12,977 nt of DNA from Desulfobacula sp. GTDB lineage: Bacteria; Desulfobacterota; Desulfobacteria; Desulfobacterales; Desulfobacteraceae. The position numbers were made by a program, and so were the translations under genes. The stretch is taken from contig JAQICW010000485.1 in the NCBI GenBank assembly GCA_027858355.1, positions 1 through 12,977 of the forward strand. The letters run 5' to 3'. Below the pieces are notes generated by a model that saw only the letters and a list, made by a program, of their open reading frames with translations, searched no databases and was not told the origin of the DNA. Shown in pieces: positions 1 to 12,977 of this stretch (position 1 is its first letter; each line of letters begins with the position of its first letter).

Positions 1-90
1 ACTAACCTCCAAAATAAACAATAAACCAAAACAAACAATAAACTGGACAATCTTCATTTTCATCTTATTTTATTGCCTTATTCATTTTGT

Positions 91-116
91 ATATCCAGGT
101 AATGGATATTTTTTTT
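91..116 (+). terminator. Possible weak terminator at the left edge
   Basis: A 6-bp inverted repeat (ATATCC at 91-96, GGATAT at 104-109, 7-nt loop) is followed directly by a run of eight T (109-116). The layout is that of an intrinsic terminator, but the stem is AT-rich and short. It would end a gene lying to the left of the window. It could equally be chance in AT-rich DNA. Confidence 0.25.
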
Positions 117-181
117 AACTGCCAATACCTTACAGGCAAGCAAGCCTGAAAGGGTTTGGGAAATCAGGGATAGGGGCTAAA

Positions 182-205
182 GCTATGGATCAATGCTATG
201 GATCA
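182..205 (+). repeat. Short tandem direct repeat upstream of the isomerase gene
   Basis: GCTATGGATCA occurs at 182-192 and again at 195-205, a period of 13 bases, just ahead of the SlyD-like gene. The second copy carries an ATG-containing stretch that opens an upstream in-frame start at 193. That start has no ribosome binding site, so it is not preferred. No function is evident; slippage duplication is the simplest explanation. Confidence 0.6.
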
Positions 206-231
206 TGCCAGATCCTGGAAGGAATGAGATT

Positions 232-810
232 ATGACAGAAGCAATAAAATCAGGGGATACCATTTCTGTTGATTATACTGGAAAACACGAAGACGGGGAA
301 GTATTTGATACTTCCCAGGGCAAAGCACCCCTTACATTTACAGTTGGATCTGGAATGCTGATTCAGGGATTTGATACAGCTGTTATGGGGATGAAAAAAG
401 GGGAGTCAAAATCCGTTATTATCCCTCCTGAACAGGGGTATGGCCTGCGAAATGAGGATGCATTTGTGAATGTGCCCCGCACGCATTTCCCAGAAGAGAT
501 CCCCCTGTCTGAGGGATTGCTGCTTGAACTCCAGGACCCTGAAGGACGTCCGGTTCCGGCACTGGTTGCAGAGATTGGTGAGGATTCGGTTAAAATGGAT
601 ATAAACCATTTTCTTGCAGGAGAAACCCTGACCTTTGACATTACCATCAAAGAAACCGGCGTGGCTCCCCTGGCCCATACTTGCGGGTGCGGGCCTGATG
701 CTAACGGCGGATCTGATGCTAAAGGCGGGTCTGATGCTAACTGCGGATGCGAATCCCATTCTGATGGCTGCTGTTCTGATTCAGAAAGTGGCTGCAATTG
801 CGGCGATTAA
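232..810 (+). CDS. slyD: SlyD-like FKBP peptidyl-prolyl cis-trans isomerase with Cys-rich metal-binding tail
   Basis: Cytoplasmic prolyl isomerase/chaperone of the SlyD class, 192 aa from the preferred start. The ATG at 232 is chosen because GGAAGGA (217-223) lies 8 bases before it and the family N-terminus begins here; an in-frame ATG at 193 would add 13 residues without a good ribosome site. The FKBP fold is shown by VDYTGKHEDGEVFDTS near residues 11-26, GSGMLIQGFDTAVMGM near 37-52, and the insert-in-flap segment from the GYGLRNEDAF region to about residue 120. After about residue 145 comes a tail with eight Cys, in CGC, CGC, CC and CNC clusters, plus two His. In SlyD proteins such tails bind nickel and other metals and support nickel-enzyme maturation. 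The tail contains three 18-bp repeats. The gene is monocistronic with a strong terminator downstream. The family call is firm; the metal role is inferred from the tail. Confidence 0.92.
   Translation: MTEAIKSGDTISVDYTGKHEDGEVFDTSQGKAPLTFTVGSGMLIQGFDTAVMGMKKGESKSVIIPPEQGYGLRNEDAFVNVPRTHFPEEIPLSEGLLLELQDPEGRPVPALVAEIGEDSVKMDINHFLAGETLTFDITIKETGVAPLAHTCGCGPDANGGSDAKGGSDANCGCESHSDGCCSDSESGCNCGD
697..750 (+). repeat. Three 18-bp tandem units in the SlyD tail
   Basis: Units at 697-714, 715-732 and 733-750 encode DANGGS, DAKGGS and DANCGC. The copies differ at few positions, so they look like a recent in-frame expansion that lengthens the metal-binding tail and spaces its Cys clusters. A gain or loss of one unit would keep the reading frame. 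Confidence 0.75.
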
Positions 811-896
811 GTACCTCAAATGAAATAAATTGAGCAAAAGACAAGCAATTTTGTTCAAGTTATAAAATTTGTGGTCCTAAACTGTTTTACTGGTCT

Positions 897-960
897 ATCC
901 TTGCTGGATTCCGGACCGGGGAGCCACTGCCCTTGGCCCGGAATCCAGCAAGGATGTTTT
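897..960 (+). terminator. Intrinsic terminator with a perfect 18-bp stem
   Basis: The arms at 897-914 and 938-955 are perfect reverse complements over 18 bases, separated by a 23-nt GC-rich loop and followed by GTTTTT. The position, 87 bases after the SlyD stop, fits termination of that gene. The stem is longer than needed for termination, so it may also be a copy of a dispersed palindromic element. Confidence 0.8.
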
Positions 961-1028
961 TCAAACTGCTGAGCCTTTATTTTGCTGTCTGATTCGTTAG
1001 CATTCTCTCAGGATTTGTCATGATATGA

Positions 1029-1130
1029 CTATCCCATGCCTTCGTGCATATCCTTGAAAGCCTGCCATTCAGCTTCATTTAACTGGCCGTCTTTATCCTT
1101 ATCCAGGATATTGAAATTATCTTCAATATG
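1029..1130 (-). pseudogene. Remnant of an EF-hand protein (C-terminal fragment)
   Basis: The minus strand reads 33 codons between an upstream in-frame TAG (1131-1133) and a TAG stop at 1029-1031. It contains the canonical 12-residue EF-hand loop DKDKDGQLNEAE, with Asp at positions 1, 3 and 5, Gly at 6 and Glu at 12, then a helix-like WQAFKDMHEGMG terminus. There is no ATG and no ribosome site. It is therefore most simply the 3' end of a lost calcium-binding protein gene whose body has been deleted or mutated. An unusual start such as ATT for a 33-aa protein is possible but unlikely. The loop assignment is secure; the pseudogene status is inferred. Confidence 0.7.
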
Positions 1131-1177
1131 CTAATATGTCAGGAATGAGCAGATAGGAGCTTCAGATATAATATAAT

Positions 1178-1351
1178 ATGGAAACCATGACATCAATTAC
1201 AGGTTTATTCCATCCCCTGATCAAGAAATGGTTTCTTGATTCTTTTTCCAATCCCACTGATATCCAGGAGCTTGCCTGGCCTTTAATGGCCAATAAAAAA
1301 AATGTTCTTATCACAGCACCCACGGGAAGCGGAAAAACCCCATTAAAATAA
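1178..1351 (+). pseudogene. Truncated N-terminus of an Lhr-type DEAD/DEAH helicase
   Basis: From the ATG at 1178 (or the in-frame ATG at 1187) 57 codons are open, ending in TAA at 1349-1351. The residues match the start of Lhr-family large ATP-dependent helicases: a hydrophobic/aromatic segment FHPLIKKWFLDSF, the Q-motif-like PTDIQELAWPLM, and Walker A APTGSGKT at about residues 47-54. Homology stops three codons after Walker A; full Lhr proteins run to well over 800 residues, often about 1500. No DEAH box or later motif follows in any frame. A break therefore lies near 1340. An AGGAG at 1155-1159 is too far from the ATG to be convincing. The product would be inactive. The family call at subfamily level is from memory of the motif spacing. 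Confidence 0.75.
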
Positions 1352-1366
1352 AGCGATCTGCTTTAT
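1348..1366. repeat. Short hairpin at the helicase break point
   Basis: ATAAAGC (1348-1354) and GCTTTAT (1360-1366) form a 7-bp inverted repeat with a 5-nt loop, overlapping the stop codon of the truncated Lhr-type helicase. It sits where homology is lost, so it may be a scar or terminal repeat of whatever entered here. Chance is also plausible at this length. Confidence 0.4.
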
Positions 1367-1462
1367 CCTGCAAGGTAATAAAAAATATGAGGTGCTATTA
1401 TGTTATTCCTTCTTTTTAAAAGGATGAATACGGAGCTTTATAGCCAGTCGACCGGCCTTTGA

Positions 1463-1492
1463 AAATTAATTTCACCTTGATAAAATTAATTT
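1463..1492. promoter_or_regulatory. Paired palindromes, possible operator
   Basis: The self-complementary 10-mer AAATTAATTT occurs at 1463-1472 and at 1483-1492, exactly 20 bases (about two helical turns) apart centre to centre. Two sites on the same face of the helix are what a dimeric repressor would use. They lie about 360 bases before the helicase start, which is far for an operator unless a promoter lies nearby. AT-rich background makes chance a real alternative. Confidence 0.25.
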
Positions 1493-1511
1493 TTATTTTT
1501 GCGTCCATGAT

Positions 1512-1534
1512 AAAGATTTCACACAGAAATCTTT
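1512..1534. repeat. Perfect 9-bp hairpin
   Basis: AAAGATTTC (1512-1520) and GAAATCTTT (1526-1534) are perfect reverse complements with a 5-nt ACACA loop. No T-run follows on either strand, so it is not a standard terminator. It could be a leader structure or a protein site. Confidence 0.5.
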
Positions 1535-1772
1535 CCGACTATCAGGTGCGTTTAATAAAGGGAGCTTAAGGATATTATTTGAATGGTTGAATAATTGAAA
1601 TGCCTTTACAGGCTTTTGAGATGTTGCTATGAAATTCCAGAACAGAATTTTTATTTTATTTTGTCAGAGATCATTCAAAATTACGAGACAAACAGATCTG
1701 TATAATTAAATTGTTAAATGTTAGTGTAAAAAATGAGATATCTCCAAAAAATTATTGGGGACATCAACTTCC

Positions 1773-1801
1773 TTGAAAATATTGTTAATTAAGTATATTC
1801 A
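1773..1801 (+). promoter_or_regulatory. Candidate sigma70-type promoter for the defence operon
   Basis: TTGAAA at 1773-1778 is followed after 17 bases by TATTCA (1796-1801), or after 15 bases by TATATT (1794-1799). The position is about 45 bases before the TTG start of the helicase gene. Neither pair is a strong consensus match and the region is AT-rich, so this is only a best guess. Confidence 0.3.
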
Positions 1802-1846
1802 TTCTTAGTTTCTGAAAGACATTTTAATGATAAAAAAGGATGCTAA

Positions 1847-4800
1847 TTGAATTCTTCTGATCTCACATTTTTCACTAATGAAAGTGGACAAACTTTGCTT
1901 GATCGTTTTAAATCAACTTTAAACGATACAGTTTTGTTTGATATTCTAGTCGGCTATTTTCGATCAAGTGGTTTCTACCAGCTATATGAATCCATTGAAT
2001 CCGTCGATAAAACGAGAATTTTGGTTGGCCTTGGCATAGATGCAAATGCTTACCAAACCATTCAAACCTATCAGAACAAATCAGTTTTGGATTTTGATTC
2101 CCACTACAAAGTAAAACGACAGTTTCAAAATGATTTAATCAATGAGGTTGAAAACTCAACAGGCCAGGATGAAAAACTCGAATTAGGACTTAAAAAATTT
2201 ATAGAATTTCTTCTGGTTGATTGTGCTGAACAAAATCAGGATCTGCAAAATGGCGGTAATGGTAAAAAATTGGAAATCCGCGCATATCCTTCCAAAAACA
2301 TCCACGCGAAAGTATATATAGGCCGATTCGCTCCAGATGACAGAGATTATGGTTTTGTGATTACCGGTTCAAGCAATTTTTCTTATTCCGGTCTTGTGGC
2401 CAATCGTGAATTCAATGTTGAATTACGGCAAAGAAGGGATGTTGAATTTGCTTTGGACCAGTTTGAAACGCTTTGGAAAGAATCTGTTGATATTTCGGAA
2501 GAATTTGTAGATGCAGTAAGGAATAAAACATGGTTGAATGATCAGATCACACCATATGAGCTGTATTTAAAACTTATTTATGAATACCTTCAAGAGGATA
2601 TTAATTTGAGTGATGAAATTGATACCTTCTTGCCTGAAGGATTTATGTCTCTGCAATACCAGCAGCAAGCTGTTATCCAGGTACTAAAAAAACTGGAAGA
2701 GTACAATGGGGTCTTCCTTTCGGATGTGGTTGGATTGGGAAAAACATTTATTGCGGCCCAGCTGCTCCAGCAAATAAAAGGCCGTATTCTAGTCATTTGC
2801 CCGCCAATGATCAAAAGCTACTGGGAAGAAAGTCTTCATGATTTCAGAGTGCCGGCGAAAGTAGAATCTCTTGGGAAATTAGATCAGATTATCCATTTTG
2901 GGCTTGATCGATTCAATTATATTGTTGTTGACGAAGCACACCGTTTCAGAAATGAAACAACCCAGTCATATGCAGACTTGCTGGATATCTGCCGTGGTAA
3001 GAAAGTTATTCTGATTACTGCAACCCCCATGAACAATACCATTGATGATATTTTTTCTCAGCTTAAACTTTTTCAAGCCCCCAAAAGGAGCATGATACCC
3101 GGAATTCCAAACCTTGAAAAATACTTTAACACCCTGCGGAAACGGTTTAAAAATATTGATAAAAAAGATCCTGAATATCATCAGATTGTCTTGGAGGTCT
3201 CAGAAGAAATAAGGGAAAAGATTTTAAAACATGTCATGGTCAGGCGAACTAGAAGTGATGTGACAACCTTTTTTAAAGAAGATATTGAAAATCAGGATCT
3301 TAAATTCCCTGAAATGCAGGACCCTGTAAAAATAGTATATCAATTTGAAGGTCAGCTGGAGTCCATTTTCAACGAAACCATCAACCTTTTGAGTTCATTC
3401 CGTTACTCAAGATATACCCCTTTGCTGTATTACACAGGCAAAAAACGTTTAAGTGAATTTGAAAAGCAGCAGCAGAGGAATGTTGGCGGCTTTATGAAAG
3501 GTATTTTAATCAAACGACTTGAAAGTAGTTTTCATGCCTTCAAAAAGACATTGCACCGATTTGTCCAGTCATACAAAAACTTCATCAAAATGCTGGATCA
3601 GGGGACTGTTTATATCAGTAAAAAAATAGATGTTTACGATCTGCTGGATAATGACGATCTGGAAAAATTGGAAAAATTTATTGAGCAGGAAAAAGTTCAG
3701 AAATACATGGCTGATGATTTTAACCCATTATTCCATAAAGACCTGCAACATGATCTGAAAATTTTAAACGGGCTGTCACATTTATGGACCAAGGTTGTGC
3801 ATGATCCAAAAATCCAAAGCCTAATTCATGCATTAAAGAATGACAAAGCGTTGAAAAGAAAAAAACCAATCATTTTCACGGAATCAAAAGAGACAGGCGA
3901 TTATCTTTATGATTGCCTGAGCCGCGAGTTCCCGGATGGGGTCTTTTCTTTCAGCAGCCAGGGCGGGTGTTTTCAGAATAAAAATGCCACTCTTTCTCCA
4001 TCAATTGCTAAAAATATCATCAAGGCAAACTTTGACCCCAATCAAAAGAACAAGCGAAATGATATCAATATCCTGATTACCACAGACGTTCTTTCAGAGG
4101 GGATTAACCTTCATCGCAGCAATATCCTGATCAATTACGATCTTCCCTGGAATCCCACACGGGTTCTTCAACGATCCGGACGGGTGAATCGCCTGGGTTC
4201 AAGATACTCAAAAATCTATATTTATAATTTTTTTCCGACCACACAGTCTGATGCCCATCTGGGACTTGAAACCAATATTATGAACAAAATACAGATGTTT
4301 CATCATATCCTGGGCGAAGATGCAAAGTATCTGTCAGAGGGCGAAGAGATCGGTAGCCAGGAACTTTTTGATACGTTAAACAAAAAAAATACATATACAG
4401 GCGAAATGGAACCTGTTGATTCCGAACTTAAATATCTTGAGATGATGCGGACACTCAGGGATGAAGATCCAGCTCTGTTTGAACAAATTAAAAAACTCCC
4501 CAAAAAAGCCCGATCCGGTGCCATGGGAGATGGTATTTCAGCAAATCGACTGGTTACTTTTTTCAGGCTCGGAAAATTGAAAAAATTCTATTTAAACACA
4601 GGGCACAGATCCAGAGAAATTACTTTTTTTGATGCCGCTGGCCTAGTTGAATGCTACCCCAAAACACAAAGACAACCCATACCCAAAGATTACTACCAGC
4701 TTCTGGAAACCAATAAGCTGTGTTGTGAACAGGATACGCTGCAAAGTACAGAACCTGATTTAAAAAGTATGGGCGGCAGAAGCAATATTAATTATATTGA

Positions 4801-5089
4801 AAGTAGATTAAAAGAAAGAAGTTTTAAGCAATGCAAAAAATTTACCGATTCAGATGAGGATTTTTTGGATGGTGTAAAGCGGATGATCAAACAGGGAACG
4901 CTTGCTAAAAAAACAGCCATGAATATCAAGCGGGCGCTTGAAAAAACGCTTGACCCTTTAAAAATACTGGAAATCCTTCGAAAACATATCCGGATCATTG
5001 ACAGCCCTGAATCGACAGGCTACAAACAGCATCAATATAAAAGAGAAATTATTCTATCTGCTTATCAGGTAAAAAAAGGGGTTTCATAG
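1847..5089 (+). CDS. PLD-domain/SNF2-family helicase (defence-associated)
   Basis: First gene of the operon: 1080 aa, complete. TTG start at 1847 preceded by AAAAGGA (1834-1840) at 6 bases; no closer alternative in frame. Residues about 1-210 form a phospholipase-D-like module with one HxK...N signature: H153, K155, then GSSNFS with N177 and a downstream EFNVEL. Residues about 265-830 are an SF2/SNF2 helicase core: Walker A GLGKT with K299, DEAH at 362-365, TATP at 391-394, TTDVLSEGINL with D747, and QRSGRVNR at 775-782. The last 250 residues are an unassigned helical C-terminus. Such proteins translocate on double-stranded DNA; with a PLD module they occur in restriction-like defence loci. 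A single HKD half-site would need dimerisation to be catalytic. The function in defence is inferred from its neighbours. The next gene starts 17 bases later. Confidence 0.88.
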   Translation: MNSSDLTFFTNESGQTLLDRFKSTLNDTVLFDILVGYFRSSGFYQLYESIESVDKTRILVGLGIDANAYQTIQTYQNKSVLDFDSHYKVKRQFQNDLINEVENSTGQDEKLELGLKKFIEFLLVDCAEQNQDLQNGGNGKKLEIRAYPSKNIHAKVYIGRFAPDDRDYGFVITGSSNFSYSGLVANREFNVELRQRRDVEFALDQFETLWKESVDISEEFVDAVRNKTWLNDQITPYELYLKLIYEYLQEDINLSDEIDTFLPEGFMSLQYQQQAVIQVLKKLEEYNGVFLSDVVGLGKTFIAAQLLQQIKGRILVICPPMIKSYWEESLHDFRVPAKVESLGKLDQIIHFGLDRFNYIVVDEAHRFRNETTQSYADLLDICRGKKVILITATPMNNTIDDIFSQLKLFQAPKRSMIPGIPNLEKYFNTLRKRFKNIDKKDPEYHQIVLEVSEEIREKILKHVMVRRTRSDVTTFFKEDIENQDLKFPEMQDPVKIVYQFEGQLESIFNETINLLSSFRYSRYTPLLYYTGKKRLSEFEKQQQRNVGGFMKGILIKRLESSFHAFKKTLHRFVQSYKNFIKMLDQGTVYISKKIDVYDLLDNDDLEKLEKFIEQEKVQKYMADDFNPLFHKDLQHDLKILNGLSHLWTKVVHDPKIQSLIHALKNDKALKRKKPIIFTESKETGDYLYDCLSREFPDGVFSFSSQGGCFQNKNATLSPSIAKNIIKANFDPNQKNKRNDINILITTDVLSEGINLHRSNILINYDLPWNPTRVLQRSGRVNRLGSRYSKIYIYNFFPTTQSDAHLGLETNIMNKIQMFHHILGEDAKYLSEGEEIGSQELFDTLNKKNTYTGEMEPVDSELKYLEMMRTLRDEDPALFEQIKKLPKKARSGAMGDGISANRLVTFFRLGKLKKFYLNTGHRSREITFFDAAGLVECYPKTQRQPIPKDYYQLLETNKLCCEQDTLQSTEPDLKSMGGRSNINYIESRLKERSFKQCKKFTDSDEDFLDGVKRMIKQGTLAKKTAMNIKRALEKTLDPLKILEILRKHIRIIDSPESTGYKQHQYKREIILSAYQVKKGVS

Positions 5090-5106
5090 AAGATTAACAA
5101 TTAATT

Positions 5107-5877
5107 GTGTTAAAAAGAAATCTGAATATGGAAAAAGCACAGGCTAAAGAACATATTGAATCGATTTTCCAACATCCATTTGAAAGGGTGTCATATGAAA
5201 ATTTCCTTCGCAACCTGCTCAATGAATTTGAACCCAGGGGCCGCCATTACAGTGGAAATGTGATCCCCCATGCATTTAAACAGCACATCACCCAATATTG
5301 GCGATTGGGCAAATATATTGATCCGAACAGCCTTGAAATGGATTTGCTGGTGGTTGAGGTCAAAAGCCTTGCCAAACTTGACCGGGCAAGGACAGCCCTG
5401 AGAAATTTTGCTGTCAACCGGTTGTCTGTATTTGGGAAAGAATATTCACTCATTGCTTTTTATGCAAAAGAAGACAAGGGATCGGACTGGAGGTTTTCGT
5501 TTGTTAAAATTGAGCCAGTGGCATATCAGGATGAAAAGGGAAAGATCAAAACCCAAAAAGAGCTGACACCTGCCAAGCGGTATTCGTTTCTTGTTGGGGA
5601 GCATGAAAACAGCCACACTGCCCAGGCCCAGTTGCTGGATATCCTGGTGATGGATTATGCAAGACCCAGGATTGAAGACATTGAGAAGGCTTTCAGTATT
5701 GAAAGAGTAACCAGAGAGTTTTTCAACCAGTATAAAGACCTGTTTATATTGCTGGCAGATCACCTTAAAACCCAGCCGCTGTTTAAAAAAGATATTGATA
5801 AATTTCCCCAGAATGTCCATCGGTTTTCAAAAAAACTGCTGGGTCAGATTGTTTTTTTATATTTCCTGCAAAACTAA
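5107..5877 (+). CDS. Fragment 1: N-terminal nuclease-like domain of the restriction-methylase
   Basis: 256-aa open segment up to the first TAA. The start is uncertain: GTG 5107 lies 17 bases after the helicase stop, while ATG 5128 matches the usual MEKAQ-like beginning better; neither has a strong ribosome site. The residues include FLRNLLNEFEPRG near 33-45 and a D72...E84-V-K86 pattern in a hydrophobic strand (LLVVEVKS), which resembles a PD-(D/E)XK core. Then come AFYAKEDKGSDWRFSFVKIEP and a helical tail ending in LLGQIVFLYFLQN. The stop falls at the edge between the nuclease-like domain and the helical connector, so a free 256-aa product could in principle fold. If it is made and active it would lack the target-recognition and methylase parts. 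That is inference. Confidence 0.6.
   Translation: MLKRNLNMEKAQAKEHIESIFQHPFERVSYENFLRNLLNEFEPRGRHYSGNVIPHAFKQHITQYWRLGKYIDPNSLEMDLLVVEVKSLAKLDRARTALRNFAVNRLSVFGKEYSLIAFYAKEDKGSDWRFSFVKIEPVAYQDEKGKIKTQKELTPAKRYSFLVGEHENSHTAQAQLLDILVMDYARPRIEDIEKAFSIERVTREFFNQYKDLFILLADHLKTQPLFKKDIDKFPQNVHRFSKKLLGQIVFLYFLQN
5875..5877 (+). other. Internal TAA stop 1
   Basis: TAA in the frame of the restriction-methylase gene, after ...LYFLQN and before GWLGVPK. Relatives known to me read QKKGW here, so the AAC-TAA pair probably derives from two Lys codons by two adjacent substitutions. It is not a frameshift: the downstream residues continue in the same frame. Confidence 0.85.
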
Positions 5878-5943
5878 GGCTGGTTAGGGGTACCCAAATC
5901 AAAAAAATGGGGCAATGGCGATAAGCGGTTTTTACGTCATCAA

Positions 5944-6513
5944 TTGAACGCAACAGTTGAAAACAACAGCAGTTTTTATACAGATTGTCTCCGTTTTCTT
6001 TTTTATGAAGCATTGGCTAAAGAACGGAATGAGCAGAAGGATCAAGGTTACTATCCCCGCCTTGACTGCAAGATCCCGTTCCTGAACGGCGGTCTGTTCG
6101 AGCCTGATTATGACTGGGAAAAAGAGGCAGTCCATATTCCAAATGATATCTTTACTAACCAGGAAAAAAATAAATCCGGGGATCAAGGGACCGGAATCCT
6201 GGATGTGTTTGACCGCTATAATTTTACGATCAAAGAAGACGAACCCCTTGAAAAAGAAGTGGCGGTTGATCCTGAAATGCTGGGAAAAGTTTTTGAAAAC
6301 ATGCTGGATGTAACGGAAAGAAAAAGCAAAGGCGCATTTTATACCCCCAGGGAAATCGTCCATTATATGTGCCAGGAAAGCCTGATCCATTTTCTGGACA
6401 ATGCATTAAATACATACCAGGAAACAGCATCTGCTTCAGATGTGTTTGAGGAACCCAAAGATTCTCTATTTGCAACTTCCGTCCAGCAGACCCTTTTTCC
6501 GACATCCTCATAA
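5944..6513 (+). CDS. Fragment 2: connector and methylase motif X of the restriction-methylase
   Basis: Open segment between the two TAA codons; the frame is in fact open from 5878, and TTG 5944 is only the first start-like codon. No ribosome site precedes it, so independent translation is unlikely. Family-typical stretches are visible: LRFLFYEALAKER, YYPRLDCKIPFLNGGLFEPD, GTGILDVFDRYNFTIKEDEP, EKEVAVDPEMLGKVFENMLD, and motif X KGAFYTPREIVHYM, which helps bind S-adenosylmethionine. The segment from 5878 to 5943 also encodes conserved family residues (GWLGVPKSKKWGNGDKRFLRH), which shows that the true gene crosses the first stop. It ends at the second TAA just before motif I. Confidence 0.45.
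   Translation: MNATVENNSSFYTDCLRFLFYEALAKERNEQKDQGYYPRLDCKIPFLNGGLFEPDYDWEKEAVHIPNDIFTNQEKNKSGDQGTGILDVFDRYNFTIKEDEPLEKEVAVDPEMLGKVFENMLDVTERKSKGAFYTPREIVHYMCQESLIHFLDNALNTYQETASASDVFEEPKDSLFATSVQQTLFPTSS
6511..6513 (+). other. Internal TAA stop 2
   Basis: Second TAA in the same frame, between methylase motif X (ending 6369) and motif I (starting 6700), in a poorly conserved linker. The residues after it (NTIHVSKKEIEALIRKGPLYLEN) are family-typical. A single substitution from a GAA or AAA codon would be enough. Confidence 0.85.
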
Positions 6514-6549
6514 AATACGATCCATGTTTCGAAAAAAGAGATTGAAGCC

Positions 6550-8712
6550 TTGATTCGAAAAGGCCCCCTTTACCTTGAAAATGATAGTCATGTCATTGAA
6601 AAGGGGAAAGAAACAACAGCTCATCAATTCAAACTGCCCCCAAGCGTTCGAAACCATGCCAAAAAAATCGACGATAGTCTGGCCGGGATTAAGATCTGCG
6701 ATCCTGCTATTGGTTCCGGCGCATTTCCAGTGGGCATGCTGCATGAAATTGTCAATACCCGTCTGGTGCTGGAACCCTACACAAAAAACGGCCTGACCGC
6801 CTATGATTATAAACGGCATGCCATCCATGAAAGTCTTTATGGTGTTGATTATGATGCCAGCGCCATTGATATCGCCCGGCTTCGGTTGTGGCTGTCCCTG
6901 GTGGTGGATGAAGAAGATTATACCTCCATCAAGGCGCTTCCCAATCTGGATTATAAAATCATCCAAGGAAATTCTTTGATCGGACTGGATGAGCGATACC
7001 GACCGGCATGGCTGTCAACCATTGAAGCCTTAAAAGAAGATTTTTACCAATGCAAAGATCCGAATGAAAAGATCCGGTTGAAAGACGAAATCAATAAAAA
7101 ACTCTACGGCCATTTGAAATCTTCTAAATCTCATTCAGGGTTTTATTCAAAGTCCGCTTCAGGATATAAAATTGATTTTGACTTTAAATTGTTTTTTTCA
7201 GAAGTCTGGGCGCAAAATGACGGGTTTGATATTGTGATCGGTAATCCGCCCTATGTCCAGATCCAGAATTTCAGCGGCCAGCAGATTCAAAAAGACCTGG
7301 AAAAGCAGAATTATGAGACCTTTGCCAAAACCGGAGATATCTATTGCCTGTTTTATGAAAAAGGCTACCGCCTGCTGAAAAAAGGCGGGGGATTGTGTTT
7401 TATTACTTCTAATAAGTGGATGAAGGCAAATTATGGTGAAAGACTACGGCAGTTTTTCAACAAAAAAACCGACATATCTATTTTGATTGATTTCGGGGAT
7501 TCTCCAATTTTTACTGAAGCCGTGACCTATACAAATATCCTACTCTTTTGCAAACAGAAATCCCATATCCATCCACCGGCATGGGATTTAACAAAAGTAT
7601 TTAAAGTGCATAGTTCGCTTAATAAATTGTTGTCTGAAAATTCTCCTGGTTGCATCCTGACAACCAAAGATTCATTTGTGATTGCATCAAAAGAAATGGC
7701 GGATATCAAAATCCGTATTGAAACTTCCGGGATGCCGCTAAAAGATTTAGCATCTTCAATAAATTACGGTATGAAAACTGGCTTTAATGAAGCCTTCATC
7801 CTCGATGGCCGGACAAAAGACAGACTTATTTCAGAAGATCCCAAAAATGAAGAAATTCTAAAACCCATTCTTCGGGGGAGAGATATCAAACGCTATCATG
7901 CATCCTTTGCAGATTTATGGCTAATTAATTCCCATAATGGCTACAATGGCGCACCTGCTGTAAACCTTGACGATTACCCATCTGTGAAGCAGCATTTGGA
8001 AGCTATAGAACAAAAACGGATTGCCGGTGGTTTAGGAAAAAGCGCAATAAAAGCAAAGGGTCTTTTTAATAGAGATGATCAGGGAAAGACCCCTTATAAT
8101 CTCCGAAGCTGCGCATATATTCCTGATTTTTATAAAGAGAAAATCATTTGGCTTGAAATGTCACCAAGGCCCAATTTTACATACTCTTCAACAGAAATGT
8201 TTGTTTTAAACACATCATATATTTTAACTGGGGATAATCTTTTAAGTCTTTTGGCTATGCTTAACTCAAGCATTATGGATTTTTATTTTGCACTGATATC
8301 TTCTGATGTGAGAGGGAAAACAAGGCGTTATATCAAACAATATGTTGAAAAAATTCCCATCCACAAAAATATTAGTAAAATTTCGTCTTCTTTATCAGCA
8401 CTCTCAAGTTATCTGCTGTATTTATCGAATACGGAAAATGGGTTGTTTTATTCTTATTTTGAACAACTCATTGACGGCCTGGCATACGAGCTTTATTTTC
8501 CGGATGAATTAAAAACAGCTGGAAAAGAAATCTTTTCACATGTGGGCAAATTGGTCCCTGTTTCAGATCAGATGACGGAGGAAAAAAAACTGGCAGTTAT
8601 CCAAAAAGAATTTGACCGACTTTACAACCCGGCCCATCCCGTTAGAAACCATCTTGAAACCCTTGACAGCGTGTCCATTGTCCGGATCATCCAGAAAGAA
8701 TTAAAAAGATGA
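6550..8712 (+). CDS. Fragment 3: adenine-methylase core and target-recognition domain
   Basis: 720-aa open segment from TTG 6550 to the stop at 8712; the frame is open from 6514. GAG at 6538-6540 is a weak ribosome site, so a separate start is doubtful. Motif I DPAIGSGAF begins at residue 51, VDYDASAIDIARLRLW follows, and NPPY is at 232-235, the catalytic motif of N6-adenine methylases of the gamma/Eco57I type. The C-terminal half contains a TaqI_C-like specificity region: SINYGMKTGFNEAF, ILKPILRGRDIKRY, WLEMSPRPNFTYS, LNSSIMDFYF. Motif X, encoded before the second TAA, is absent, so this piece alone is not expected to bind S-adenosylmethionine normally. The stop overlaps the next gene's ATG (ATGA, 8709-8712). 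Confidence 0.65.
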   Translation: MIRKGPLYLENDSHVIEKGKETTAHQFKLPPSVRNHAKKIDDSLAGIKICDPAIGSGAFPVGMLHEIVNTRLVLEPYTKNGLTAYDYKRHAIHESLYGVDYDASAIDIARLRLWLSLVVDEEDYTSIKALPNLDYKIIQGNSLIGLDERYRPAWLSTIEALKEDFYQCKDPNEKIRLKDEINKKLYGHLKSSKSHSGFYSKSASGYKIDFDFKLFFSEVWAQNDGFDIVIGNPPYVQIQNFSGQQIQKDLEKQNYETFAKTGDIYCLFYEKGYRLLKKGGGLCFITSNKWMKANYGERLRQFFNKKTDISILIDFGDSPIFTEAVTYTNILLFCKQKSHIHPPAWDLTKVFKVHSSLNKLLSENSPGCILTTKDSFVIASKEMADIKIRIETSGMPLKDLASSINYGMKTGFNEAFILDGRTKDRLISEDPKNEEILKPILRGRDIKRYHASFADLWLINSHNGYNGAPAVNLDDYPSVKQHLEAIEQKRIAGGLGKSAIKAKGLFNRDDQGKTPYNLRSCAYIPDFYKEKIIWLEMSPRPNFTYSSTEMFVLNTSYILTGDNLLSLLAMLNSSIMDFYFALISSDVRGKTRRYIKQYVEKIPIHKNISKISSSLSALSSYLLYLSNTENGLFYSYFEQLIDGLAYELYFPDELKTAGKEIFSHVGKLVPVSDQMTEEKKLAVIQKEFDRLYNPAHPVRNHLETLDSVSIVRIIQKELKR

Positions 8713-10094
8713 ATGTAGAAGAGCTGAAAACCATTATTAAAAAAGGTGAGGACAGTTCCTGCCAGCTTAAGGCGGATATCCGGAATGTGGATTCCCTGGC
8801 ATCTGAAATGGCTGCATTTGCCAATTCAGAGGGCGGTACCATCCTGATCGGGGTTCATGATGACGGTTCCATTCCCGGATTGTCCGGCAGTGATGTAACA
8901 AGGATCAACCAGTTGATCAGTAATGCCGCAAGCCAGCATGTGAGAAGCCCTTTGCAGGTAAAAACAGAGAATATTCTTCTTTCAAACGACAAAATCGTCA
9001 TTGTTGTGTTCATACCAAAAGGAATTGATAAACCCTATTTTGATAAAAACGGGGTGATCTGGCTTAAATGCGGATCAGACAAACGCCGCGTTAATTCCAA
9101 AGAAGAACTCAGACGTCTTTTCCAGATGTCCGGGCAGTTCCACGCAGACGGACTGCCTACAAAAGCTGGAATAGATAAACTTGATAAACTCAGATTCCGG
9201 GATTTTTTGCGGGATGTGTATAAACTCGAATTCCCTGAATCCCCGGAAGCACTTCTCAGGCTATTAAAGAACATGAACCTTGCTTCAGATGATGGGATGT
9301 TGAATCTGGCCGGGGTACTGCTTTTTTCCGAACAGCCGGAATGGATCGCACCCCAGTTCGTAATAAAAGCGATCCAGTACCCGGGCAATATGATTCACCC
9401 GTCGGACTATCTGGATACTGAAGATTTTTCGGGCCCACTGCCAAGGGTATTTGAAAATGCCCTGGCCTTTATTATGCGCAATCTTCACAAGATTCAGGCC
9501 GGACGCGGCATCAATATGCCGGGCAGACCGGAAATCCCGGAAGCGGTTTTTGAAGAGCTGCTGGTCAATGCACTAGTGCACAGGGATTACCTGGTCAGTG
9601 CTCCGATCCGCCTTTTTATATTTGATGACCGGATTGAAATCGTCAGCCCCGGTCATTTGCCGAACAATTTAACAGTTGAAAAAATCAGGACCGGCATATC
9701 CAATATCCGCAATCCCATCCTTGTTTCATACACTGCCAAAGGCCTTTTGCCCTATCACGGCCTTGGTTCGGGCATCAAAAGAGCCCTGGGTCAGTGGCAG
9801 GATATTGATTTTGAAGATAACCGGGAGGCCTGTTTATTTGTTTCAACAATTCATCGAAAAAAAGAACAACAGAAGTTAAGTTCGGAAAAAAGTTCGGAAA
9901 AAAGTTCGGAAAAGACCGATCTTCTGATTCTTGAAAAATTACGCCAAAATCCCCAGCTGACCATCAAAAACTTATCGGAAATCTTACATCTTTCCACCAG
10001 AGCAATTGAAAAACAGATGGCAACATTAAAAAAAACAGGAAGACTCAAACGGCGCGGTTCTCGACAGCAAGGGCACTGGGAAATTATTGAATGA
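8709..10094 (+). CDS. AlbA_2 / HATPase_c_4 / winged-helix protein (COG2865-type, RloA-like)
   Basis: 461 aa, complete. The ATG overlaps the methylase stop in ATGA, so translation is probably coupled. Residues 1-120 are an AlbA_2 (Schlafen AlbA-like) nucleic-acid-binding domain, with MAAFANSEGGTILIGVHDDG and VIWLKCGSDKRRV as typical stretches. Residues about 275-385 match the HATPase_c_4 domain: FEELLVNALVHRDY with the N-box N287, then IEIVSPGHLPNNL and the GLGSGIKRAL glycine loop. A repetitive linker SSEK x3 (391-402) leads to a winged-helix segment (about 403-450; LTIKNLSEILHLSTRAIEKQM). Proteins of this type are often called putative transcriptional regulators or RecG-like; they frequently sit beside type I and IIG restriction genes. 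The precise role is unproven. It may regulate the operon or act in defence. Confidence 0.85.
   Translation: MNVEELKTIIKKGEDSSCQLKADIRNVDSLASEMAAFANSEGGTILIGVHDDGSIPGLSGSDVTRINQLISNAASQHVRSPLQVKTENILLSNDKIVIVVFIPKGIDKPYFDKNGVIWLKCGSDKRRVNSKEELRRLFQMSGQFHADGLPTKAGIDKLDKLRFRDFLRDVYKLEFPESPEALLRLLKNMNLASDDGMLNLAGVLLFSEQPEWIAPQFVIKAIQYPGNMIHPSDYLDTEDFSGPLPRVFENALAFIMRNLHKIQAGRGINMPGRPEIPEAVFEELLVNALVHRDYLVSAPIRLFIFDDRIEIVSPGHLPNNLTVEKIRTGISNIRNPILVSYTAKGLLPYHGLGSGIKRALGQWQDIDFEDNREACLFVSTIHRKKEQQKLSSEKSSEKSSEKTDLLILEKLRQNPQLTIKNLSEILHLSTRAIEKQMATLKKTGRLKRRGSRQQGHWEIIE
9879..9914 (+). repeat. Three 12-bp tandem repeats encoding SSEK
   Basis: Units at 9879-9890, 9891-9902 and 9903-9914 (AGTTCGGAAAAA, last copy ending in G) encode SSEK three times in the linker before the winged helix of the AlbA_2 protein. 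Near-identical DNA copies point to replication slippage. Twelve-base units keep the frame, so copy number would change linker length only. Confidence 0.85.
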
Positions 10095-10465
10095 AAATAG
10101 ACCGAATTGAAATTGTGAATTATAAGGCCTTTATCGGGACTCATGAAATTTCGGTCAAAGGGAAAAATCTGTTTATTTACGGTGAGAATGGCAGTGGGAA
10201 AAGTTCCCTTTACTTTGCTTTGAAAGATTTCTTCCAGGCCTCTGTAGAGGATATTGACCTCAATGAACTTGAAAATGTTTTTCTTTCCGATGACCAGAAA
10301 GGGAAAACGGGAATTCGTGTTGATTTTAAACCAAATGTTCATGGCAAAAAAAAGTTAGGACATTATTCGTTCACAGCGGCCGGAAAAAGTTTAGGAGATC
10401 CTGGCGACACCAGTATTCGACAGGCTGTTACAGAATGCGGATTTTTCCCATTTTTGAAGTTGTAA
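10091..10465 (+). pseudogene. Truncated RecF/SMC-like AAA ATPase
   Basis: 124 codons. The ATG overlaps the preceding stop in ATGA (10091-10094), which makes this the fourth gene of the operon. The N-terminus is typical of RecF/SMC-like ATPases: a first strand IDRIEIVNYKAF followed by Walker A GENGSGKS at residues 31-38, then FALKDFFQAS. Family members need a C-terminal Walker B and signature motif several hundred residues later; none is present. The family-like sequence fades near residue 110 (DTSIRQA), and the last dozen residues (VTECGFFPFLKL) look foreign. The gene is therefore broken near 10420 by deletion or insertion. The product could bind but not productively hydrolyse ATP. Confidence 0.78.
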
Positions 10466-10600
10466 GTCATTGATTTTATTGATTTTCAATTTTTTTATAA
10501 AAAATAATGCGTGGAAATGGCCGGGCATGGCGCCCATGGCTTATAATTGAATATAAATTTCAGGGCTGTAAAAGCCTTGTATAACATATGTGCAATTGTC
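10420..10600. other. AT-rich junction after the truncated ATPase, possible mobile-element scar
   Basis: From about 10420 the sequence no longer reads as the ATPase in any frame. It contains a T/A-rich block (10466-10510) and then a GC-rich interrupted palindrome around 10518-10545 (GGGCATGGCGCCC within it). No transposase coding is visible. The abrupt change suggests the edge of an insertion sequence or a deletion join, but I cannot match it to a named element. Confidence 0.35.
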
Positions 10601-10602
10601 TT

Positions 10603-10631
10603 GGGGGGTATCAACAATAGTCAATCCCCCC
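10603..10631. terminator. G6/C6 hairpin between converging genes
   Basis: Six G (10603-10608) and six C (10626-10631) can pair around a 17-nt loop, followed on the + strand by TTTATT. It lies just beyond the stop of the antisense flavoprotein remnant, so it may have terminated that gene or transcription coming from the defence operon. The T-tract is imperfect. Confidence 0.35.
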
Positions 10632-10640
10632 TTTATTGTC

Positions 10641-10960
10641 TTATCGAATAAAATTGGTGGCAATTTTATCGACCCTGGCAGGTGGAGAAACTTTTGTGCT
10701 GCCGGCTTCGATCACCTTCATCAATCAGGCCATATTTCTACCGAGTACCTCCATAATCTGCTTGCCCTCGGCATCCTGCTCCATCTCACCGGGCACCAGG
10801 CCATGGGCTACAGTCCAGTAATTGGCGCTGGGCATGAACATTTCAGAATAAGCCAATATAGTGATTCAGGGTGTCTATGGTCGGAAGACCGCCTGACCTT
10901 CGCACTGCGGCAACGGATGCACCCACTTTGTGCCATGAATGGATTGCCAAAAAAACCAGC
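10641..10960 (-). pseudogene. Remnant of a flavodoxin-family (iron-sulfur-flavoprotein-type) NAD(P)H reductase
   Basis: The minus strand encodes the C-terminal half of an NADPH-dependent FMN reductase-type protein. One frame gives KVGASVAAVRRSGGLPTIDT then LNHYIGLF (from about 10929 to a TGA at 10843-10845). Another frame continues with MFMPSANYWTVAHGLVPGE, EGKQIMEVLGRNMA, then TGA at 10725-10727, then LMKVIEAG and VDKIATNFIR to the TAA at 10641. The two parts join into one family-like sequence if a frameshift lies between 10843 and 10866. The TGA stands where relatives have Trp in NMAWL, a TGG to TGA change. The N-terminal flavin-binding half is missing. It is a clear pseudogene. A + strand ORF of 128 codons over this region is its shadow. 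Confidence 0.75.
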
Positions 10961-11000
10961 CAGGGTGGTGATGTAAAATAATTTCCTGAGATGGATTTTA

Positions 11001-12494
11001 TTATGCCTTATAATAGGTATCCAGATATTTTTTCAGGATGTCGCTGACAATCCCCCTGGCAGGAATTGTTGCAGCCATGCCGTAAACGGGGGCCATGCCT
11101 TTTTTTGTGTCTGGTGTTGTTTTTACGATTTCAACAGATAGTTTCAAATCGTCAATAAACCTCTGGCTAACCCCTTCCCGGGTGTGTAAAAGCGTAATGG
11201 CGATATGAACACAGGAGGGTTTGTGAAGGCCGTTGAGGCTCCAGCCTTTTTGGGTCATTTCATCAAGCACTCTGTAAATATTAAGTTTTTTTGAACCAAA
11301 AGCAATCACCCACAAGGGTTTTCCAAGAATATAGAGTTCCGGAATTTCGCAAATTCCCTGTTTGATTTTATCTGCAGTAACCATTATTTTTTGGGTGGCA
11401 TCAAGATATCCTTTTTCGCCAATGGATAAAAGTGATGCCCAGCAGGCAGCACTTAATGCGCCGGGTCTGCTTCCGGCAAATGTTGGGGAAAAATAAAGGC
11501 CGCCGGGCCAGTCCGTGGCCGTGTAGTACTGGAAATGCCGAAGTTCTTCCCCGCGATACATGACAACAGAGGTGCCTTTGGCAGCATATCCATATTTATG
11601 GGTATCAGCTGACATGGAGGTGACACCCTTGAGTCTGAAATCAAACGGTGGCACATCAAAACCTAATTTTTCGGCAAAGGGCAGGACAAAGCCGCCAAGG
11701 CATGCGTCCGTGTGAAACCCGATATTATGTTCCAATGCAATGGCTGACATCTCTTCTATGGGATCAATCGTCCCATGGGGAAAGGAGGGAGCTGAGCCCA
11801 CAATGGCAATGGTATTTTTGTTGATGGCTTTTTTGATTTGACTGATATCAGCCTGGAAATTCTTGTTCACAAGAATATGCTGCATTTTGATATTAAAATA
11901 CTGACAGGCTTTGTCAAAGGCGGCATGGGCTGTTACAGGAACAATGAGTTCCGGGTTTTTTATGTTTTTATTAACCCTGGCAAAATCCCTATAGGTTTTC
12001 ATGGCAAGCAGAATGCTTTCTGTTCCGCCCGAGGTCACTGTGCCGCAGATGGGGTCATCCGTCTTTTTTGATGAAAGCATTGTGGCTGTCATTCCAATTA
12101 TTTCCGCTTCAAATTTCGAAGCACTGGGCCATAGATCGGAATGCAGCGGATTAATTTGTGATGTAACCGCATAGACCTTGTTTAAAAATTCAATATGCTC
12201 CTGGTTGCCATGGTAGACTGCTCCGGAGACATAACCATCTTTCCATTTATCTTCCTCCCTTGTGTTCATTTCTATAATCTGTTCAAGAATATCATCTTTT
12301 TTAAGCGGCTCCCGGGGAAGATGTGTATTTGAGTTTAAGACATCTTTATAGGGTTTTAAAGATGTTTCAAAATCTTTGACAACCTTATCTAATTCTTTAT
12401 CTACTTTATTTTTCACATAGGGTATTTTTTTTAAATGCTTTTCCATAAAGCAGGCAAGTTTTTGCGGGATGAAACTAACTAGTTTTTCAATCAT
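11001..12494 (-). CDS. Sphingosine-1-phosphate-lyase-like PLP-dependent enzyme
   Basis: 497 aa, complete, fold-type I PLP enzyme of the group II decarboxylase/S1P lyase family. Landmarks: TSGGTES at 154-160 (phosphate-binding), H190 in TAHAAFDKA (ring stacking), D263 in HTDACLGGF (pyridine nitrogen), and the Schiff-base Lys K300 in SADTHKYGYAAKG. Resemblance to eukaryotic S1P lyase continues through TDWPGGLYFSPTFAGSRPGA, LSAACWASLL and a C-terminal GMAPVYGMAAT. The eukaryotic N-terminal membrane anchor is not evident, so it is probably cytoplasmic. The family cleaves phosphorylated long-chain bases into an aldehyde and phosphoethanolamine; related bacterial enzymes act on other amino substrates, so the substrate is open. 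ATG 12494 lies 2 bases after the stop of the kinase fragment, suggesting a former operon. Confidence 0.88.
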   Translation of the reverse strand: MIEKLVSFIPQKLACFMEKHLKKIPYVKNKVDKELDKVVKDFETSLKPYKDVLNSNTHLPREPLKKDDILEQIIEMNTREEDKWKDGYVSGAVYHGNQEHIEFLNKVYAVTSQINPLHSDLWPSASKFEAEIIGMTATMLSSKKTDDPICGTVTSGGTESILLAMKTYRDFARVNKNIKNPELIVPVTAHAAFDKACQYFNIKMQHILVNKNFQADISQIKKAINKNTIAIVGSAPSFPHGTIDPIEEMSAIALEHNIGFHTDACLGGFVLPFAEKLGFDVPPFDFRLKGVTSMSADTHKYGYAAKGTSVVMYRGEELRHFQYYTATDWPGGLYFSPTFAGSRPGALSAACWASLLSIGEKGYLDATQKIMVTADKIKQGICEIPELYILGKPLWVIAFGSKKLNIYRVLDEMTQKGWSLNGLHKPSCVHIAITLLHTREGVSQRFIDDLKLSVEIVKTTPDTKKGMAPVYGMAATIPARGIVSDILKKYLDTYYKA

Positions 12495-12496
12495 TT

Positions 12497-12910
12497 TTAT
12501 TTATTTAACCTTTTATATATTTTTTTATTCTGTTTATAAATGGCCAGGTATTGTTTAAATAATTTTTCATAGAGTTTTAGATTTTTTGGATTGGGTTTGA
12601 AAATTGAATCATATTGAGTTCTTTCCGGTATTTCATCAAATTTAATATATCCAAGGGCAACAGATCCGATAAGCCCTGCCCCTCTTACATTTGCCTGGAT
12701 GGGGTTTTTAACCCTTCTGAGGGTCCGGTTCAAAATATCGGCATGGATCTGGCACCAGAGATCAGACTTGGCACCGCCGCCGATAATATTTATGGTTTTC
12801 ATTTTCTTTTTAATCAGTTTTTCAACATATTTCAGCAGCCATTTGGCATTAAAGGCAACTCCTTCAAACACTGCTCTTACCATATGGGCCCGTTTCGTAT
12901 TTAAAGACAT
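12497..12910 (-). pseudogene. C-terminal fragment of an FGGY-family carbohydrate kinase
   Basis: 137 codons open from ATG 12910 to TAA 12497-12499. It matches the C-terminal part of xylulokinase-like FGGY kinases: SLNTKRAHMVRAVFEGVAFN, the ATP-site IIGGGAKSDLW with G44-S49, and NVRGAGLIGSVALGY. Intact kinases are about 500 aa; the sugar-binding half is absent. Immediately upstream the frame reads through unrelated residues to a TAA at 12938-12940, so the homology is cut near 12908 rather than at the window edge. It would not be active. Its stop is 2 bases before the lyase start, so the two genes were probably co-transcribed, and the lyase may now lack its original promoter. Confidence 0.8.
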
Positions 12911-12977
12911 ATGGGGAGTGAGCTGACAAAACCTACCTTAAGGTGAATAGACCCATGAAACGTTTTTCTTGACTATT
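12911..12977. other. Unrecognised sequence replacing the kinase N-terminus
   Basis: Sixty-seven bases up to the window edge do not encode the missing part of the kinase in any frame. A perfect 10-bp palindrome ACCTTAAGGT lies at 12935-12944. This could be the end of an insertion element or a deletion join that continues outside the window. Confidence 0.4.

Follow-up and report, generated by a model that had tools for sequence, protein, structure and literature searches.

The DNA analysed (hereafter the window) is a stretch of 12,977 nucleotides from Desulfobacula sp., positions 1 to 12,977 of the forward strand of contig JAQICW010000485.1 (assembly GCA_027858355.1), and its central part carries a gene resembling the type IIG restriction enzyme-methyltransferases, here called the restriction-methylase (RM) gene, which is interrupted by two in-frame stop codons. 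The gene lies in an operon between a helicase gene upstream and a Schlafen-type gene and an ATPase gene downstream. Its reading frame at 5107-8712 comprises 1202 codons, was translated as one frame and terminates with TGA at 8710-8712. The features of the gene are as follows.

5128..8712, + strand: type IIG-like (Eco57I/TaqI_C) RM gene with two in-frame TAA codons, matched by PADLOC profile PDLC03596 on read-through and by Pfam Eco57I and TaqI_C
5875..5877, + strand: premature stop 1 (TAA), residue 257, at a column where lysine is family-invariant (29/29 and 52/52 homologs)
6511..6513, + strand: premature stop 2 (TAA), residue 469, within the variable linker that precedes DPAIGSGAF

The ATG at 5128 (residue 8) is the likely start of the RM gene, rather than the GTG at 5107, because residues 1-7 are absent from all five nearest aligned homologs (P0002-P0006). 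Past this start, the length differences between the read-through protein and P0002 and P0003 are gaps of 1-2 residues only, and the protein matches its homologs over the whole length, indicating that the gene contains no frameshift. With X placed at both stops, the read-through protein matched the type IIG profile PDLC03596 at 901.8 bits (E 1.9e-271), and pieces 1, 2 and 3 each matched their own successive part of this one profile (positions 1-254, 257-398 and 487-1099 of 1148), so the three-piece match is above chance. The third piece scored above the Pfam cut-offs for Eco57I (146 bits) and TaqI_C (55.6 bits), and its translation contains DPAIGSGAF and NPPY, which we take to be adenine methylase motifs. 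In the N-terminal part, where no profile named a nuclease, D79, E84 and K86 are conserved and may resemble a PD-(D/E)xK nuclease site. The domain content and order are those of type IIG enzymes, with the profile match, the methylase motifs and the target-recognition domain (Eco57I, TaqI_C) all found; the difference is that two premature stops prevent nuclease and methylase from being encoded in one continuous polypeptide, and no complete product is expected. On these sequence features the RM gene is filed as a disrupted type IIG copy, not as a working member, because it has two in-frame TAA codons where 78 of 80 loci with a relative have one frame.

The search with the read-through protein scored 7997 proteins, of which 120 were listed, and the best of these was 74% identical over 99% of the query; identities to P0002, P0003, P0004 and P0005 were 74, 70, 67 and 66%. 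The main alignment holds 29 of the 120 listed homologs, from P0002 to P0032, with P0014 and P0030 omitted (local alignments of about half coverage). The column of stop 1 was K in all 29, and a second alignment, with 52 homologs, showed no variation in this column or in those adjoining it (K, K, G, W, L, G), the GWLG directly after the stop being present in 52/52. The column of stop 2 was more variable, with Q in P0002-P0005 and P0032, H in 12 homologs, other residues in 8 and a gap in 4, and with Q in 6/52 of the second alignment; P0002-P0005 and P0032 are all the other members of the clade of the window protein in the maximum-likelihood tree (support 100/100). Other matches were two distant viral-contig relatives (34 and 43%), 195 records of a plasmid collection that match the third piece, none with one place covering 80% of it, and seven sequences of solved structures, methylases such as BseCI and TaqI, which match in the methylase region and in some cases on to residue 1088.

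Since both internal stops are TAA, TAA could stand for an amino acid, either throughout this organism or in this gene, a reading that is scarcely credible: the homologs differ by site (K at one, Q at the other), the codons of this gene are more likely to become TAA than any other stop (0.41-0.52), and the FKBP and decarboxylase genes of the window terminate with TAA. The decarboxylase moreover has the same length of 497 aa in the window and in the comparison genome G391, indicating that TAA ends translation here.

To place the two stops among relatives, the best 80 (L001-L080) of 551 genome loci with an RM relative were screened for one frame containing both QIVFLYFLQ, which lies before stop 1, and DPAIGSGAF, which lies after stop 2 (at most 3 and 2 mismatches). 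A single open frame across both motifs was observed in 78/80 loci. Of the two exceptions, L067 lacks part of the gene because its contig begins within it, and L078 is interrupted by an in-frame TAA of its own, at residue 305; the two stops therefore do not mark natural boundaries between subunits. The same counts bear on the proposal that the protein is split and still working, either as a nuclease part, a connector and a methylase part made by reinitiation, or jointly by low-level readthrough. This would suit the position of stop 2 in a variable linker before DPAIGSGAF, the uneroded coding sequence, and the TTG start of the third piece 12 codons past stop 2 with an A/G-rich run upstream, but the second piece offers no start codon of any type until 22 codons past stop 1. 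A search with the first piece only gave 304 matches, and among the 120 listed ones that were checked for their end point, 15 short homologs end within residues 245-270, scattered and none at 256, with contig ends indistinguishable from true stops. The tails of these short homologs differ: some show altered sequence at or before the stop-1 site (e.g., P0122, P0145, P0167 and P0168), P0138, P0147, P0182 and P0216 end abruptly just ahead of it, and conserved sequence continues beyond it in others (e.g., P0154, P0185 and P0186). P0182, on a 37.9-kb contig, ends one residue short of the first piece of the window, which would favour a split, a true stop and a contig end looking alike there. A still working split protein is accordingly judged very unlikely, and a variant of this proposal, in which the stops tune expression instead of abolishing it and the nuclease-containing N-terminal and methylase-containing C-terminal pieces are separate and selected as a naturally split type IIG enzyme, is given marginally less credence still.

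The reading of the pieces as separate subunits was rejected, the ends found in the search with the first piece being scattered. Phase variation by slippage at an A run was dropped as well, as the lesion of the window is not a length change; among the QKKG sites (n = 86 including the window), a run of eight A was present in 3 and a run of six A in 38. An earlier note on this DNA had described two in-frame TAA codons without a frameshift in a family of single long polypeptides, with family-typical residues on both sides of each stop, and this description agrees with the 1202-codon translation, the whole-length match, the invariant K and GWLG and the open frames of the relatives. The alignment of the joined translation with intact homologs, which it had proposed as a check, gave K at stop 1 and, within the clade, Q at stop 2, and the homologs ending at these exact points as separate subunits, which it had named as a refutation, were absent at residue 256 among the 120 listed.

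The remainder of the RM protein was compared with its homologs for signs of erosion. In a leave-one-out analysis of 30 sequences, the window departs at 3 of 292 columns that are invariant in all others, one of them being residue 256, which adjoins stop 1; among the 29 homologs the range is 0-6, apart from P0032, which departs at 26 of 315 invariant columns. At columns conserved to at least 90%, the window departs at 17/482 and the other 28 rows at 1-35, P0032 having been omitted from this count because of its 26 departures. In the maximum-likelihood tree of residues 8-835, the end branch of the window (0.14) is no longer than that of its sister P0002 (0.042 + 0.099, measured from their common fork). 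As the protein shows no erosion elsewhere, the two stops are probably late, and recent stops would also explain the missing indels.

The earlier note had called two clean stops without an indel unusual for old decay, which is not supported by the expected mutation spectrum. A random substitution in the codons found in the window creates a stop in 4.1-4.9% of cases, and when small indels are assumed to be 5-20% as frequent as substitutions, with 80% of them frame-shifting, the neutral probability of both lesions being nonsense is 0.04-0.30. Clean in-frame TAA lesions were also observed in four relatives, namely L014 (residue 1134, near the end), L018 (inside an insertion near residue 558), L078 (residue 305) and L085 (residue 167), in a scan of 82 loci made up of the best 80 and of L085 and L087, which were added since stops had already been flagged there, so that these two are not an unbiased sample. 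Five of the nine listed stops were not counted as lesions, because they lie on the other strand (L024), after a frameshift (L032) or before the start (L072 and L087), or were taken as a natural end (L036). Frame changes were found in the RM relatives L032 and L067, and in L056 the RM relative departs from the frame beyond residue 716 and resumes its match at 1048 in a different one, which may or may not be damage. Two nonsense changes in a decaying gene, as the earlier note had suggested, fit both the K in 52/52 homologs at stop 1 and the single frame in 78/80 loci; the suggestion is supported, with the refinement that the decay appears to be recent rather than old.

The genes and sequences around the RM gene are listed below.

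1114..1340, + strand: 5' remnant of an Lhr-family helicase gene (about 54 codons, beginning at 1178), 96% identical in DNA to genome G391 (locus L130); left island edge
1847..5089, + strand: PLD-SNF2 helicase gene, uninterrupted, 1080 aa, TTG start; PLDc_2, SNF2-rel_dom and Helicase_C above Pfam cut-offs
8709..10094, + strand: Schlafen AlbA_2/histidine-kinase-type ATPase/helix-turn-helix gene; SLFN_AlbA_2, HATPase_c_4, HTH_11 and HTH_24 above Pfam cut-offs
10091..10465, + strand: cut AAA_15-type ATPase gene, matching the 482-aa L001 protein over residues 1-112 of the latter and unrelated to it thereafter (blastp)
10417..10493, no strand assigned: 77-bp sequence at the ATPase break, with 92% identical copies at two places in the related genome G383

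The helicase is 83% identical to that of L001, a locus of a Desulfobacula metagenome-assembled genome, where it has the same length and TTG start. A helicase relative lies upstream of the RM match in 74/80 loci, with its end less than 2 kb away; of the remaining six, five start no more than 470 bases from where the available DNA ends, and L080 has room and no helicase. A relative of the L001 ATPase was found within 5 kb downstream of the RM match in 38/80 loci, and of the remaining 42, 18 have the full 9 kb and no ATPase match, L009 and L041 have it further away, and the rest have less room. By these locus counts, the helicase-RM pair is the stable core, and the ATPase is frequent, not universal. 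According to the record titles of L001-L080, the pair of a PLD-SNF2 helicase and a type IIG RM recurs in many bacterial groups, often with an AAA_15/SMC-like ATPase and sometimes with a Schlafen-type gene.

The start of the Schlafen-type gene overlaps the RM stop by ATGA, and in L002 and L038 a gene with SLFN_AlbA_2 and HATPase_c_4 overlaps the RM stop likewise in the same slot; the window protein gave no match to these two counterparts by tblastn at 1e-5. L141 (related genome G294, contig C387) carries at 2013-2438 what remains of a Schlafen-type gene, 84% identical to the C-terminal third of that of the window and interrupted by two stops; no relative of the helicase, RM or ATPase was found in the 6 kb around it. 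When the C-terminal part of the ATPase was sought in the window, chance matches only were obtained (best E 0.21).

In passages of PMC12839542, a fusion of an HKD nuclease with a Swi2/Snf2 helicase, together with an N6-methylase, is described for type-2 BREX-related systems, and Schlafen-histidine-kinase-wHTH proteins are described as auxiliary effectors; PLD nucleases are mentioned in DISARM and related systems in passages of PMC12458937. Compared with these portions of the two sources, the window similarly combines a SNF2-type helicase bearing a PLD(HKD)-type domain with a neighbouring adenine methylase, but its methylase is of type IIG and its ATPase of the AAA_15 type. The gene at 8709-10094 has the domain order of the Schlafen-histidine-kinase-wHTH proteins in those passages of PMC12839542 and, unlike the auxiliary effectors there, is placed between the RM and ATPase genes. 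DUF499 was not among the matches listed in the Pfam, PADLOC and NCBIfam scans of the window proteins, and no other core genes of DISARM or BREX were among those listed for the six open reading frames of 1847-10465, the matches to DISARM and BREX models being confined to the helicase and the RM, below the NCBIfam curated cut-offs. The exact gene arrangement is not named in the passages of PMC12839542 and PMC12458937, which is no sign of its being unpublished.

On the left, the match to G391 leads into L130 (4338-8839), where an Lhr-family helicase with the domains DEAD, WH_Lhr and DEAD_assoc is split over two overlapping frames of 575 and 960 aa, so that a frameshift may have broken it. The right-hand stretch 10934-12600 shares 95% identity with contig C554 of G391; this match stops at 10934 though the contig extends further. 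The two edges map to different G391 contigs, and G391 may be incomplete; we infer from these edges only that the block from about 1340 to 10934 would be an island relative to G391. G391 belongs to the relatives of the genome that carries L001, so the window probably falls in the same part of the tree. Short sequences that are multi-copy in related genomes (1333-1720 and 10488-10592) flank the island on both sides, which suggests repeated insertion and deletion at its edges. Another short dispersed repeat lies at 826-884, just after the FKBP gene, with a core at about 835-881 and more than 40 matches listed in four of the six related genomes searched.

The reading preferred here, with a probability of roughly 0.8, is a recent nonsense inactivation of a formerly intact type IIG RM gene in a defence island that is damaged elsewhere too. 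Directly observed are the two stops and the homology, together with the single frame of the relatives, the cut ATPase and the lack of general erosion. Under this reading, the RM gene would have been intact until recently, in an operon of PLD-SNF2 helicase, RM, Schlafen-type protein and an ATPase now short of three quarters, and would then have lost function through two nonsense changes. Translation would end with residue 256, and the product would at most be a nuclease-like N-terminal fragment lacking the methylase. The ATPase may have been damaged first and the RM gene second, the ATPase loss having relaxed selection on the remaining operon.

Several results weigh against this reading. The operon is not uniformly decayed, since the Schlafen-type gene is still open, as is the helicase gene, which departs at 18/498 conserved columns (1-29 in the 39 relatives above 58% identity, of 63 gathered). 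Both stops lie near apparent domain edges, as a split protein would also predict, by a poor AlphaFold2 model of the intact homolog P0002 (mean pLDDT 64, pTM 0.34; too poor for a fold search), in which the stop-1 position (249) directly follows helix 227-248 and the stop-2 position (462) falls inside a stretch, 430-463, with pLDDT under 50. The relative-rate tests were mixed, some giving an excess of window-unique changes and others a deficit. Over the whole protein, the counts for the window were 117 vs 58 (outgroup P0004) and 108 vs 61 (P0005) against P0002, and 211 vs 49 and 208 vs 47 with the same outgroups against P0003. With outgroups P0006, P0011 and P0019, they were 64 vs 80, 68 vs 82 and 62 vs 80 against P0002 (not significant), and 63 vs 114, 60 vs 116 and 75 vs 107 against P0003, so that in both sets the sign depended on the outgroup. 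The tree is preferred over these pairwise tests, because it groups P0003 with P0004, P0005 and P0032, apart from the window, and because most of the P0003 excess sits in the third RM piece; on balance, most of the RM divergence appears to have built up under constraint.

A sequence error would look identical to these lesions, and one or both TAA codons could be base-calling or assembly errors in an intact RM gene. The constrained appearance of the protein outside the stops would favour this, as would the plasmid collection, in which no near DNA match to 1100-10980 was found. Two separate stop-producing errors would be required, with zero indel errors in 3.6 kb; residue 256 also departs from a column invariant in 29 homologs, so that the change exceeds one miscalled base, and the cut ATPase is independent damage. 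An error is therefore considered unlikely, while carrying more weight than a split protein.

If a split were nevertheless true, it would represent a naturally split type IIG enzyme, against which the evidence leans. Recent inactivation would make this locus a clear case of an RM gene lost within a defence module of several genes, the ATPase of which is cut too, and would provide one data point on how such defence modules are lost.

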